64,000 bases of DNA from positions 1,116,001 through 1,180,000 of the forward strand of contig NZ_CP066218.1 of the NCBI RefSeq assembly GCF_016313185.1, read 5' to 3'. The first letter of the stretch is position 1; each line of letters opens with the position of its first letter. The DNA is from Mycolicibacterium baixiangningiae (GTDB lineage: Bacteria; Actinomycetota; Actinomycetes; Mycobacteriales; Mycobacteriaceae). Positions 31,829 through 38,090 of this stretch are shown here, piece after piece. The position numbers and the translations under genes are program-made. Under the pieces are notes generated by a model. The model saw only the letters and a list, made by a program, of their open reading frames with translations. It ran no database searches and was not told the DNA's origin.

Positions 31829-33043
<1,215 letters not shown>

Positions 33044-33108
33044 CTACCCGATACCTGCGGTACTGTGTACACCAGACCGGTGAATGTAAACCCACTTGGG
33101 AGGCTCTC

Positions 33109-34125
33109 ATGGCTCGCACACGCACGGTCCGGCGGTGGCGCCGCAATATGGACGTCGCCGATGACGCGGCATACGTGAACACACTGACCACCCTGTCCGA
33201 GGGATCGGTGCGGCGGAATTTCAACCCGTACACCGACATCGAATGGGACACCCCGGAGTTCGCTGTGTTCGACGGCGACGAGCGGTGGATCCTGCCGGGA
33301 ACCGATCCGATCGGCCGCCATTCCTGGTACCGGTCGCAGCCGGTGGAGCGCCAGATCGAGATCGGCCGCTGGCGGCAGGCCAACGTCGCGAAGGTCGGCC
33401 TGCAGTTCGAGATCATCCTGATCCGCGGTCTGACGAACTACGCGTTCTGGGTTCCCAACGGATCACCCGAATACCGCTACTGCATGCACGAGACGGTCGA
33501 AGAGTGCAACCACACCATGATGTTCCAGGAGATGGTGAACCGCATCGGCGCCGACGTGCCCGGTATGCCGCGGGTGCTGCGCTGGCTGTCGCCCTTCATC
33601 CCGCTCGTGGCCGGACCGCTGCCGATCCCGTTCTTCTTCGGGGTGCTCGCCGGCGAGGAGCCGATCGACCACACCCAGAAGAACGTGCTGCGCGAAGGTA
33701 AGGCCATACACCCGATCATGGAACGGGTCATGGCCATCCACGTCGCCGAGGAAGCGCGCCACATCTCGTTTGCCCACGAATACCTGCGTAAGCGGCTGCC
33801 GCAGCTGCCGCGCCGGCAGCGATTCGTACTGTCGCTCTTCGTGCCGCTCGTGATGCGGCTGTTGTGCCAGGCCATCATCGTGCCGCCTAAGGCGTTCTGG
33901 AAGGAATTCGACATCCCGAGGTCGGTGCGCAAGGAGTTGTTCTTCCGCGCGCCGGAGTCACGGCAGTTCCTGAGGGACATGTTCGGCGACGTCCGGATGC
34001 TATGCCATGACACCGGTCTGATGAACCCGCTGGCAAAGCTCACGTGGCGGATCTGCCGGATCGACGGCCGGCCCAGCCGGTACCGCAGCGAGCCGCACCG
34101 CCAGCACGTCGCCTCGGCGGCCTAG
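33109..34125 (+). CDS. AurF-type diiron oxygenase (Rv0885-like)
   Basis: A 338-residue membrane-free helical protein of the AurF/p-aminobenzoate N-oxygenase family. The seven metal ligands of this family can be placed: E101 (LQFEIIL), E132 and H135 in EECNH, a glutamate at 183/184 (GEEPIDH), and H211-x3-E215-x2-H218 in HVAEEARH. The family oxidises amines or other substrates at a diiron centre; the substrate here is unknown. A clean SD (GGGAGG) lies six bases before the ATG. It ends 14 bp before fprB, which encodes an electron-transfer protein, suggesting that FprB is its redox partner. Confidence 0.86.
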   Translation: MARTRTVRRWRRNMDVADDAAYVNTLTTLSEGSVRRNFNPYTDIEWDTPEFAVFDGDERWILPGTDPIGRHSWYRSQPVERQIEIGRWRQANVAKVGLQFEIILIRGLTNYAFWVPNGSPEYRYCMHETVEECNHTMMFQEMVNRIGADVPGMPRVLRWLSPFIPLVAGPLPIPFFFGVLAGEEPIDHTQKNVLREGKAIHPIMERVMAIHVAEEARHISFAHEYLRKRLPQLPRRQRFVLSLFVPLVMRLLCQAIIVPPKAFWKEFDIPRSVRKELFFRAPESRQFLRDMFGDVRMLCHDTGLMNPLAKLTWRICRIDGRPSRYRSEPHRQHVASAA

Positions 34126-34139
34126 AAGGACACACGGCC

Positions 34140-35831
34140 GTGCCTCATGTGATCACCCAGTCGTGCTGCAGCGACGGGTCATGCGTCTTCGCGTGTCCGG
34201 TGAACTGCATCCACCCCACGCCCGACGAGCCGGGGTTCGCGACCGCCGAGATGCTCTACATCGATCCGGCGGCCTGCGTCGACTGCGGCGCCTGCGTCAG
34301 CGCCTGCCCCGTGGGCGCGATCGCCACCCAGGCCACGCTCACCGACACGCAGTTGCCGTTCATTGAGCTCAACGCGGCGTTCTACCCCGAGCGGCGGCCC
34401 GATGAGAAGGTGCCCCCGACCTCGAAGCTGGCGCCCGTGCCCGACGCACCCGTCGTGCACGAGCGCGGGGGCCGCCCGTTGGCGGTCGCGATCGTGGGGT
34501 CCGGCCCGGCCGCGATGTACGCCGCCGACGAACTGCTGACCCAGCGCGGTGTGCGGGTGACCATGTTCGAGCGGCTTCCCACCCCCTACGGTCTGGTGCG
34601 CGCCGGCGTGGCGCCCGACCACCAGAGCACCAAGCGGGTGACGCAGTTGTTCGACCGGGTGACAGCGCGGCGCGAACTGCGGCTCTACCTCAACGTCGAG
34701 GTCGGCACCCACGTGACCCACGCCGAACTGCTGGCACACCACGACGCGGTGCTGTACGCCGTCGGGGCGCCCCACGACCGCCGACTCGACATCGACGGTA
34801 TGGACCTACCGGGCACGGCGACAGCCACCGAGGTCGTCGCCTGGTACAACGGCCACCCCGAATACACCGACCTGCCGGTCGACCTCGGCCATCACCGGGC
34901 AATCGTCATCGGCAACGGAAACGTGGCACTCGACGTCGCCCGCATCCTGACCACCGACCCCGCCCGGTTGGCGGTCACCGACATCGCCGACCACGCGCTG
35001 GCCGCGCTGCGTGCCTCCGGTATCGACGAGGTGATGATCGCCGCCCGCCGCGGGCCCGCGCAGTCGGCGTTCACGCTGCCCGAGCTCATCGGGCTGACCA
35101 CCACCTGCGACGTCGTGCTCGACGCCGGCCCGGACATCGATGTCCACGAATGGGTGCGCCGCGACCTTGCCGACGAAACGGACCCGCTGACCCGCAACAA
35201 GCTCGAGGTGCTGTCGAAACTCGGGGATGCCTCGGCCCCCATCACCCGGCCGCGGATCCGGCTGGCCTACCGGTTGACGCCGCGACAAATCACCGGCAGC
35301 GGGCGAGCCGACGGCGTTGAGTTCACCGTCACCGGCAGCGACGATGTCCGCCGCATCGACGCCGGCCTCGTGCTGACCTCTATCGGTTACCGCGGCAAGC
35401 CCATCGCCGGGTTGCCGTTCGACGAGGTCGCCGCGACCGTGCCCAACGACGGCGGTCGCGTCGTGGACCCAGAGACGGGCCGACCCGTCGCGGGCACCTA
35501 CGTCGCGGGCTGGATCAAGCGCGGACCCACCGGGTTCATCGGTACGAACAAGTCGTGCGCCGCGCAGACCGTCCACAATCTGGTCGCGGATTACAACGCC
35601 GGCGTGCTCACCGCGCCTGGCGCCACAGGTCTGGAAACGTTGATGCGCGACCGGCAACCGGATCTGGTCGACAGCGCCGGTTGGCGCGCCATCGACGCGG
35701 CGGAGATCGCCCGCGGCGGCGAGCACCGGCCGCGGGTGAAATTCACCTCGCTCCCCGACATGATCGAGGCCGCGGCGGCCGCACCGACACCGAGTGTCGG
35801 GCGGCGCCTGCTCGCCGGGCTGCTCCGCTGA
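34140..35831 (+). CDS. fprB: Ferredoxin/ferredoxin-NADP reductase fusion FprB
   Basis: A 563-residue two-part electron-transfer protein. The N-terminal domain (about 1-105) is a 7Fe-type ferredoxin with CCSDGSCVFACPVNCIHP and CVDCGACVSACPVGAI. From about 115 follows an adrenodoxin-reductase-like flavoprotein: FAD motif VAIVGSGPAAMYAADELL, PTPYGLVRAGVAPDHQ, NADP motif VIGNGNVALDVARIL, and the late GYRGKPIAGLPFDE and KRGPTGFIGTNKSC. It would pass electrons from NADPH through FAD to its own ferredoxin and on to an acceptor. The GTG at 34140 gives the family start MPHVITQSCC. The upstream diiron oxygenase gene is 14 bp away, a plausible acceptor. Confidence 0.95.
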   Translation: MPHVITQSCCSDGSCVFACPVNCIHPTPDEPGFATAEMLYIDPAACVDCGACVSACPVGAIATQATLTDTQLPFIELNAAFYPERRPDEKVPPTSKLAPVPDAPVVHERGGRPLAVAIVGSGPAAMYAADELLTQRGVRVTMFERLPTPYGLVRAGVAPDHQSTKRVTQLFDRVTARRELRLYLNVEVGTHVTHAELLAHHDAVLYAVGAPHDRRLDIDGMDLPGTATATEVVAWYNGHPEYTDLPVDLGHHRAIVIGNGNVALDVARILTTDPARLAVTDIADHALAALRASGIDEVMIAARRGPAQSAFTLPELIGLTTTCDVVLDAGPDIDVHEWVRRDLADETDPLTRNKLEVLSKLGDASAPITRPRIRLAYRLTPRQITGSGRADGVEFTVTGSDDVRRIDAGLVLTSIGYRGKPIAGLPFDEVAATVPNDGGRVVDPETGRPVAGTYVAGWIKRGPTGFIGTNKSCAAQTVHNLVADYNAGVLTAPGATGLETLMRDRQPDLVDSAGWRAIDAAEIARGGEHRPRVKFTSLPDMIEAAAAAPTPSVGRRLLAGLLR

Positions 35832-35832
35832 C

Positions 35833-36282
35833 CTACGGTTCGCAGACCGCGGCCTGGATCTCCTCCGAACTGACCTCGCGGACGGGTTGACCCATCGACC
35901 ACAGGTGGCCGAACGGATCACGCAGGAGGCCGTAGCGATCACCCCAGAACTGCTCCTCGACCGCCATCAACACCGTGGCGCCGGCGTCGACGGCCTGCTG
36001 GAACTTCGTGTCGACGTCGGTGACCTGCAGGTGGATGGTGACTGGTGAGCCGCCCAGCGCGGTGGGTGTGGACGGCTTGCCGTCGTTGTACTCGGGAAAG
36101 TCGTCGTTGAGCATCACCATCGACCCGTTGATGTCGAGTGCGGCGTGGATCAACTTGCCGTCCTGGTTGGGTACACGCCCGTACTCGGTCGCGCCGAAGG
36201 CCTTGATGTAGAAGTCGATTGCGGCGGCGGCATCGTCGACGACGAGGTGCGGGGCGACGAGCGGTTGCACTTCGAGAGCCAT
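35833..36282 (-). CDS. Glyoxalase/VOC-superfamily protein (Rv0887c-like)
   Basis: A 149-residue two-module VOC protein: VAPHLVVDDAAAAIDFYIKAFGATEYGR starts the first beta-alpha-beta unit, and VTIHLQVTDVDTKFQQAVDAGATVLM begins the second, which ends RYGLLRDPFGHLWSMG. It resembles the PhnB-like branch that often lacks enzymatic metal ligands. The substrate is unknown. It is convergent with fprB, one base separating the stops. Confidence 0.85.
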   Translation of the reverse strand: MALEVQPLVAPHLVVDDAAAAIDFYIKAFGATEYGRVPNQDGKLIHAALDINGSMVMLNDDFPEYNDGKPSTPTALGGSPVTIHLQVTDVDTKFQQAVDAGATVLMAVEEQFWGDRYGLLRDPFGHLWSMGQPVREVSSEEIQAAVCEP

Positions 36283-36345: not shown

Positions 36346-36951
36346 TCACACAATCGAGAACGACGGCGGCAGCGCCACCCTGCCGGTCAGCGCCAACAGG
36401 ACCTGCGCGCCGCGGCCGGTGGTGACGGCGACATCCGCGGCCAGCCGCACGGCGTCGGTCAGCACGTCAGGCGGCGGCGCCCAGTCGACGCCCGCCGCCC
36501 GGGCGATGTCCAGACCGTGCACGGCCAGTTCGAACGTCCGCGTCGGCAGGTACGTCCGCAACCGCATCCCGAGGCCGCCGATCACCAGGATCAGCGGATC
36601 GCCCGCCGCGTCCACGTCGGCGAGCGCCCGCGCGGCCAGCGTCGTGACGGTGGCCGCCGGGTCCTCACCGAGGTCGCGGCCGGCCTGACGGCCCCGCTCG
36701 GCGACCGCGGCCGGGTCGATCCCGAGGGCCGCCGGGGTCACCCGCAGGTAGTACTCGGCGGCGCTGGTGACGTCTTCGCGCTCAGCGGTCGTCTGCAGGT
36801 AGGTGCCGACGGTGATCAACGAACGCGAGGTGTGGCCGACCAGCGCCCGCAGATCCCATTCGCCCAACCCCGGTCCGTCCAACGCCGCGGTGGGAATCTT
36901 GCCCACCAATTCGACGAAACTGTTTGCGGCGGAGGCGAATACGGTGCTCAC
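36346..36951 (-). CDS. DinB-like, MDMPI-domain protein (mycothiol-dependent maleylpyruvate isomerase family)
   Basis: A 201-residue protein of the maleylpyruvate isomerase N-terminal (DinB-like) family. It shows the usual early LGEWDLRALVGHTSRSL segment with a conserved histidine and the later FELAVHGLDIARAAG with another; such histidines bind a metal in mycothiol-dependent enzymes. No C-terminal sterol-carrier domain is evident. The GTG at 36951 overlaps the citA stop by four bases (GTGA), so the gene is coupled to citA. The function is not known beyond the family. Confidence 0.8.
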   Translation of the reverse strand: MSTVFASAANSFVELVGKIPTAALDGPGLGEWDLRALVGHTSRSLITVGTYLQTTAEREDVTSAAEYYLRVTPAALGIDPAAVAERGRQAGRDLGEDPAATVTTLAARALADVDAAGDPLILVIGGLGMRLRTYLPTRTFELAVHGLDIARAAGVDWAPPPDVLTDAVRLAADVAVTTGRGAQVLLALTGRVALPPSFSIV

Positions 36952-38090
36952 GGTACGGTGACCCGGTCCCAGCCCTCGACGGACTCCACGCTGCGGGGGT
37001 CGGGTCCGACGTAGATCGCCGACGGGCGCACCAGCTTGCCCAGTCGCTTCTGTTCGAGGATGTGGGCACACCACCCGGCCGTGCGCCCGCACGTGAACAT
37101 CGCCGGCATCATCGAGGCGGGCACCCGGGCGAAATCGAGGATCACCGCGGCCCAGAACTCGACGTTCGTCTCGATCGCGCGGTCGGGGCGGCGCTCTCGC
37201 AGTTCGGCCAGCGCCGCCTGCTCCAGCGCGGCGGCGACCTCGTAGCGGGGCGCTTCGAGTCGTTGCGCGGTGGCGCGCAGCACGCGTGCCCGCGGATCCT
37301 CGGCGCGGTACACCCGGTGGCCGAAGCCCATCAGCTTGTCCTTGCGGTCGAGGATGTCCTTGACCACGGCACGGGCGTCACCGGTGCGTTCGACATCGTC
37401 GAGCATCGGCAGCACCCGCGCGGGCGCACCGCCGTGCAGCGGACCGCTCATGGCGCCGACGGCGCCGGACAGCGCGGCCGCGACGTCGGCACCGGTGGAG
37501 GCGATCACCCGGGCGGTGAACGTCGAGGCGTTCATCCCGTGTTCGGCGGCGGTCACCCAGTAGGCGTCGATGGCCTCGACGTGTTTCGGGTCCGGATCGC
37601 CGTGCCAGCGGGTCATGAAACGTGAGGTGACCGTGGTGCATTCGTCGATCGACCGCTGCGGAACGGCGGGCTGGTGGATGCCGCGCGCGGACTGCGCGAC
37701 GTAGGACAACGCCATCACCGAAGCGCGCGCGAGTTGGGCGCGGGCGGTCTCGTCGTCGATGTCGAGGATCGGCTTGTAACCCCAGATGGGTGCGAGCATC
37801 GCCAGCCCGGCCTGCACGTCGACGCGGACGTCGCCGCTGTGGATCGGCAGCGGAAAGGGTTCGGCCGGCTGCAGGGCGTCGCCGAATCTCCCGTCGACCA
37901 GCAGCGCCCATACGTCGCCGAACGTCACCCGCCGGGAGACCAGGTCCTCGATGTCCACGCCGCGGTAGCGCAACGCCCCGCCGTCCTTGTCCGGTTCCGC
38001 GATCTGGGTGGTGAAGGCGACCACGCCCTCGAGCCCCTCGACGATGTCCTCCGGGGCGTGCTCCGGCATCGAAGGCGACGTCTGAGTCAT
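36948..38090 (-). CDS. citA: Citrate synthase 2 (CitA)
   Basis: A 380-residue type I-like citrate synthase family protein at the Rv0889c position. The two catalytic histidines are in [13 protein letters not shown] and [16 protein letters not shown]. The segment that holds the third catalytic residue reads [12 protein letters not shown], so a glutamate stands where GltA2 of this window has aspartate (NVDFYTG). The N-terminal [33 protein letters not shown] (in part) is typical. Two citrate synthases in one window, 3 kb apart, mirrors M. tuberculosis. It may use another acyl-CoA or have altered kinetics. Confidence 0.88.

Follow-up and report, generated by a model that had tools for sequence, protein, structure and literature searches.

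The window analysed here is a stretch of 64,000 nucleotides of Mycolicibacterium baixiangningiae (contig NZ_CP066218.1, positions 1,116,001 to 1,180,000), and coordinates refer to this window unless stated otherwise. At 33109–35831 a gene for an AurF-family ferritin-like diiron protein is followed by a gene for FprB, a ferredoxin fused to a ferredoxin reductase. This arrangement, reported in a preliminary description of the sequence, was confirmed. The AurF-family protein belongs to what we call clade I; a second clade of the family is called clade II. The parts of the gene pair are as follows.

33109..34125, forward strand: ferritin-like diiron protein of the AurF family (PF11583), in clade I; probably the ortholog of Rv0885 (open reading frame of 338 aa, Pfam)
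33409..33411, forward strand: ligand codon E101, invariant in 38/38 aligned relatives
33502..33513, forward strand: ligand motif E132-x2-H135, invariant; by motif position, Glu131 here corresponds to Asp135 of AurF
33655..33657, forward strand: ligand codon E183, invariant
33739..33762, forward strand: ligand motif H211-x3-E215-x2-H218, including the seventh-ligand His H211, invariant
34126..34139, forward strand: gap of 14 bp with a ribosome-site-like AAGGA (34126–34130), from the sequence
34140..35831, forward strand: FprB, a fusion of a ferredoxin with an NADPH-ferredoxin reductase; probably the ortholog of Rv0886 (563 aa, GTG start, Pfam Fer4 and Pyr_redox_2)
34140..34337, forward strand: ferredoxin domain, CC-x-D-x2-C-x3-CP plus C-x2-C-x2-C-x3-CP, from conserved cysteines
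34473..35768, forward strand: FprA/adrenodoxin-reductase-like FAD and NADPH domain, residues 112–543, from the match to 1lqt

The diiron protein and the fused reductase

The product of 33109–34125 matched the Pfam profile PF11583 (AurF) with 372.7 bits against a curated cut-off of 29.6 (E 1.3e-111), residues 20–303 covering positions 2–282 of the 282 in the profile, and is a member of that family along the full profile. The seven residues E101, E132, H135, E183, H211, E215 and H218 were all present and were invariant in the 38 aligned relatives. Six of them (E101, E132, H135, H211, E215 and H218) lie at the places named in the preliminary description, which had given E183/184 for the remaining position; E183 is invariant, but E184 is replaced by Asp in 9/50 AurF-family copies that have no FprB-type gene beside them. 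The set was complete in 106/106 paired clade I copies, 17/18 clade II rows (the single incomplete row, L285, is a cut-off fragment) and 50/50 unpaired copies. Since it occurs in paired and unpaired copies alike, it marks the family and not the pairing. Besides residue 131, residue 214 is also Glu, at the motif position of AurF Asp226.

The ligand set of R2-like ligand-binding oxidases (R2lox) has two His and lacks the extra His. Membership in R2lox was set aside because the extra His, H211, is present and invariant, and the protein has the seven metal ligands, extra His included, that are expected of the AurF/CmlI N-oxygenase subfamily. A His as seventh ligand is described as characteristic of N-oxygenases of the ferritin-like diiron fold (PMC13061610), and the set of three His and four carboxylates as largely unique to the N-oxygenases of that fold (PMC12101540).

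The AlphaFold 2 model of the protein had a mean pLDDT of 90.8. AurF and CmlI were its top Foldseek matches, all with E above 0.001, and the structure-comparison Z scores gave a tie between AurF/CmlI, R2lox and ribonucleotide reductase (RNR) R2 among the fold families listed. With the protein as a single-sequence phmmer query AurF and CmlI were not detected even at E 1, and a profile search gave 3chh at E 0.1. By sequence the protein is thus remote from both.

Other AurF-family copies occur in the same genome. A B-type paralogue at about 1287353–1288174 of the genome (L187:5953-6855, reverse strand; also L249) adjoins a DUF4873 protein, and judged by search scores this type is present in most of 60 Mycobacterium genomes. 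A third copy at about 4307280–4308104 (G000, L188) has no FprB neighbour and lies about 370 bp from a histidine kinase gene. One Mycobacterium genome (G050) holds seven AurF-family copies.

The product of 34140–35831 joins an N-terminal two-cluster ferredoxin to an FprA-like reductase, which is the build of an FprB-type fusion. Its reductase half (residues 112–543) matched M. tuberculosis FprA (PDB 1lqt) at E 2.2e-92, and its N-terminus matched the 7Fe ferredoxin 1bc6 at E 8.6e-12. The ferredoxin half carries the motifs C9-C10-x-D12-x2-C15-x3-C19-P and C46-x2-C49-x2-C52-x3-C56-P. Together they make a 3Fe/7Fe-type pattern, though not the classical C-x7-C-x3-C one. In the first of them, CC-x-D-x2-C-x3-CP, Asp stands at a Cys position of 8Fe ferredoxins, which fits a 3Fe cluster. 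The fusion of an NADPH-ferredoxin reductase with a ferredoxin was borne out (Fer4, Pyr_redox_2 and the 1lqt match), and the label 7Fe is plausible from the motif. C9, C10, D12, C15, C19, C46, C49, C52 and C56 are kept in 106/106 clade I partners and 20/20 clade II partner rows, and C23 in 104/106 and 20/20, respectively. The 20 rows stand for 18 different genes (L269/L285 and L277/L284 are each doubled), and in this count row L278, which is the gene of L258 again and belongs to clade II, was grouped as "other". FprA and the ferredoxin FdxA provide the same two building blocks as FprB, but as separate proteins, whereas in FprB the reductase is fused to a ferredoxin of CC-x-D-x2-C type.

The window pair probably represents the orthologs of M. 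tuberculosis Rv0885 and Rv0886. The statement that the same pair exists there is borne out by the publications, by the locus numbers and by the shared serC neighbour: Rv0885 is described as the gene divergent from serC (PMC7938724) and Rv0886, FprB, as a ferredoxin-reductase fusion (PMC6469627).

Conservation and recurrence of the pairing

The linkage of the two genes is very strongly conserved. Among 60 Mycobacterium genomes drawn, 59 have AurF-family genes and 57 have FprB (threshold E 1e-100), and in all 57 genomes having both, FprB is the same-strand neighbour of the best AurF match. In the wider family, an AurF match at E 1e-60, a threshold for clade I that would miss clade II, was obtained in 104/151 genomes. 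Regions around AurF matches were taken from a wider set of 116 genomes; 104 of these hold 106 pairs in which an FprB-type sequence lies directly downstream of AurF on the same strand, with gaps of -1 to 198 bp. The 104 genomes comprise two of Mycobacterium, eight of another order (family code f27) and every non-Mycobacterium genome of the family that gave an AurF match at E 1e-60, 94 in number. The partner is a full-length fusion (match from residue 10 or earlier to residue 480 or later) in 105/106 pairs. Among named public genomes, 70 of the best 80 loci (of 410) are paired. The preliminary description would have been refuted if the two genes were usually apart elsewhere, which was not seen in either set, and judged by gene order the coupling extends wider than it had claimed.

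Twelve of the 116 genomes gave no pair. Six of family f17 together with G071, G195 and G080 carry more distant AurFs, and from G013, G019 and G026 only the B-type copy was taken; a clade II pair is present elsewhere in G080, and the survey of 60 genomes did show the pair in G013 and G019. Two loci show separate parts. At L221 (G346) a ferredoxin open reading frame lies 8 bp behind AurF with the reductase part as a separate frame, and at L281 (G295) the ferredoxin and FprA-like reductase parts behind AurF gave no match as one frame; the two loci may carry the chain in unfused form, or they may reflect split genes or frame errors.

In an all-against-all comparison of neighbouring reading frames, in which 4/106 pairs were lost in gene calling, the two families of the pair stood at offsets 0 and +1 in 100 genomes. 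After them the commonest neighbour, an SDR family, was found in 24 genomes at mixed positions, and every other family in at most 17. None of the flanking families (SDR, ABC transporter, TetR, HSP70-like, LigD primase, Na/H exchanger and others with no Pfam match) is widely shared, so the neighbours give no clue to the substrate. In the window the pair is flanked by serC, a VOC protein and a gene that we presume to be citA. The linkage is therefore kept while the surroundings change, which is a usual sign of functional coupling, and a functional pairing of the AurF-family gene with FprB is strongly supported by these comparisons of gene order.

A second, deeply separate AurF clade with an FprB-type fusion downstream is new here. 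Among 18 hand-picked loci with FprB-type fusions outside clade I, four adjoin another AurF-family gene and two adjoin cytochrome P450 genes. A class-wide search with one of these AurFs as query gave 81 rows, 66 of which were matched to the listing of fusions; the remaining 15, of which 14 are from Mycobacterium and one is from G293, are distant by coordinates from any listed fusion. Seventeen of the 66 are paired, all with at least 54% identity to the query, and two copies at 52% and all below are unpaired. Over 246 actinobacterial genomes, with at most five candidates scored per genome, the gene directly upstream belongs to the AurF family for 44/57 listed full-length fusions, 28 times to clade I and 16 times to clade II; the clade II partner in G295 matches from residue 112 only and is not among the 16. 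By a rough estimate, far fewer than one such adjacency would be expected by chance.

Trees were built by a quick method with SH-aLRT support only and with clade I rows thinned to every fourth pair; the fragment L285 was omitted from the AurF tree, and L281 and L287 form long branches in the FprB tree. Clades I and II occupy two halves of the AurF tree, separated by long, fully supported branches, and unpaired sister lineages occur in both halves. The 27 clade I partners group together in the FprB tree (support 98), and 17/18 clade II partners make up a second group, while the clade II partner of G316 and the FprBs of G013 and G019 lie elsewhere, so that partner reductases occupy four places. 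The gene order in G013 and G019 (L255, L256) is B-type AurF, DUF4873 protein and FprB-type fusion. The pairing may have arisen several times, or it may be old and often lost; the trees are compatible with both.

Direct AurF-ferredoxin gene fusions were also sought among the best 120 matches of joined-protein and plain AurF searches. The two candidates, P0125 and P0063, have garbled reductase sequence and look like frame errors, so they were not counted as fusion evidence.

From this distribution, FprB-type fusions look like a usual dedicated reductase of AurF-family enzymes in the actinobacterial class. It is fairly probable, in our judgement, that the Actinomycetota fusion of a CC-x-D-x2-C ferredoxin with FprA constitutes a dedicated AurF-type reductase family, placed beside its oxygenases on three or more occasions (in clade I, in clade II and in isolated cases such as L274 and the trio of B-type AurF, DUF4873 and FprB) and powering an oxidation found throughout the mycobacterial genus.

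Intergenic regions and published expression data

The end of the oxygenase gene and the start of the reductase gene are separated by 14 bp (34126–34139), as previously noted, and AAGGA sits 9 nt ahead of the GTG start. A gap this short leaves no room there for a separate promoter, and 0 promoter-like and 0 terminator-like matches were obtained in 32900–36000, compared with 0.2 and 1.2 in shuffles. One further feature lies upstream of the pair.

32942..33108, no strand assigned: promoter region between the divergent serC and AurF genes, in which no CRP-like site such as that of other mycobacteria was found

The best match to a CRP-like site (TGTGA-N6-TCACA-like) in this region was just 7/10 (shuffle p 0.315). 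Sites of at least 8/10 are present in 32 of 43 mycobacterial intergenic regions examined, the present one being among the 43; no such site was found upstream of the AurF gene in the window species and ten others. M. tuberculosis CRP is reported to bind the serC/Rv0885 region, consistent with activation of both genes (PMC4117774, PMC7938724). Since the site was not found in the window species, CRP regulation cannot be carried over from M. tuberculosis.

Rv0885 is listed among hypoxia-repressed, reaeration-induced genes (PMC2905415) and is given elsewhere as up-regulated under hypoxia (PMC4916473), while a stress table marks fprB as up in two of its columns (PMC6469627). The review holding that table describes FprB as non-essential in M. 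tuberculosis, with electron-transfer abilities still to be characterised, and a transposon mutant of M. avium paratuberculosis MAP_0824/aurF, a possible ortholog of the window gene, is included in a published table (PMC7601679). The pair had been called possibly overlooked. CRP regulation and hypoxia data exist, so the genes are not wholly overlooked, but in a search largely confined to literature outside subscription journals no publication was found that mentions both Rv0885 and Rv0886 or describes the pair, and none that mentions FprB together with diiron.

Proposed electron supply to the diiron centre and possible reaction

The two genes would form a two-cistron operon, cotranscribed and encoding a two-component, NADPH-driven diiron oxygenase. 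The FAD of FprB would take a hydride from NADPH, single electrons would travel through the ferredoxin part of FprB itself to the diferric centre of its AurF-family partner, and the diferrous centre would then bind O2 as a peroxo species and oxidise a substrate. The domain make-up fits the self-contained NADPH-to-diiron chain proposed in the preliminary description. Taken as a whole, a two-cistron oxygenase with FprB as its electron supply is likely on the genomic evidence, and FprB is in our view probably the native electron donor of the AurF-family protein.

Several observations weigh against this. In the set of 116 genomes 37 AurF-family copies have no neighbouring fusion, although for 25 of them the set includes a pair from the same genome. 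Ten of the best 80 named loci are unpaired (L354, L361–L367, L373 and L385); L354, with 76% identity to the query, lacks a nearby serC, and L365, L366 and L373 come from assemblies that have a paired locus too (L331, L314 and L369). AurF proteins can thus do without a fusion nearby. Conversely, 13/57 listed full-length fusions are not next to AurF, and among the 18 hand-picked loci outside clade I one fusion (L265) is divergent from a P450 gene and another (L266) lies directly downstream of one; FprB may therefore serve other enzymes too, and the FprB-type fusion is not exclusive to AurF-family enzymes. Joint absence adds little. Three Mycobacterium genomes lack FprB: G026 (99% complete, one contig) and G008 (70%) keep only the B-type AurF, and G025 (80%) has no AurF match. 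In G026 sepH, serC, citA and pdxH are still in order with clade I AurF and FprB both gone, and the incomplete G025 has the same gene order; the loss in G026 also took two neighbours (window 35833–36282 and 36346–37092), which makes it weak evidence. A VOC search gave no match, a result that carries no weight on its own. Finally, the published expression data cited above do not show Rv0885 and fprB moving together (PMC6469627, PMC2905415, PMC4916473).

As to the reaction, the leading guess, although a tentative one, is N-oxygenation, with an amine or a similar nitrogen as the target. The missing single-sequence similarity to AurF/CmlI and the structure scores tied with R2lox and RNR R2 speak against it. 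There is nearly an even chance that the oxygenase is another ferritin-like diiron oxidase, such as a C-H hydroxylase, desaturase or R2lox-like enzyme, still fed by FprB. Against such an oxidase stand the invariant third His, H211, which completes the set described for N-oxygenases (PMC13061610, PMC12101540), and the first ranks of AurF and CmlI in Foldseek, at weak E-values.

It is unlikely that the pair serves to detoxify or turn over small nitrogen compounds in the manner of DnfA, which acts on hydroxylamine and is encoded beside the reductase DnfB in Alcaligenes (Dirammox). DnfA has the same seven-ligand set, and as an AurF homologue beside an FNR-like reductase it provides a precedent for the arrangement with a reductase of another type (PMC9478400); the pair's want of a conserved flanking gene set, with serC, the VOC protein and citA as neighbours here, would also suit such a role. 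DnfB, however, combines its FNR-like domain with a 2Fe-2S domain instead of a two-cluster ferredoxin and an FprA-like reductase, and is reported to have no significant effect on DnfA activity in vitro (PMC9478400); the present sequences hold no evidence for such a substrate. Least probable is that FprB acts as a general NADPH-ferredoxin reductase serving mainly P450s and lies behind AurF through shared regulation or history instead of direct electron transfer: the two P450-adjacent fusions, the wider occurrence of FprB-type matches (137/151 family genomes at E 1e-105, compared with 104/151 for clade I AurF at E 1e-60, where clade II would be missed) and a review naming FprB as a possible, uncharacterised P450 partner (PMC6469627) favour it, but 44/57 fusions follow an AurF-family gene, and the linkage outlasts flank turnover and recurs in distinct FprB clades.

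The window protein shares with AurF and CmlI the PF11583 profile, the seven-residue pattern of three His and four carboxylates and, judging by the top though weak Foldseek matches, probably the fold, but differs from them in having no detectable single-sequence similarity, Glu for both second-shell Asp residues, no conserved biosynthetic neighbours and a linked reductase. AurF has been assayed with artificial reductants. Its relative Dob3 was assayed with PMS and NADPH, and its native redox partner is considered in that 2026 paper to be probably encoded elsewhere in the genome (PMC13061610).

The pairing suggests a role for FprB and points to a putative oxidation kept in 57/60 of the mycobacterial genomes sampled. 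AurF-type enzymes have been studied with artificial reductants, and the conserved partner may offer a working redox system to try in the family. The recurrent pairing of AurF with FprB in actinobacteria makes the family's missing electron donor testable.
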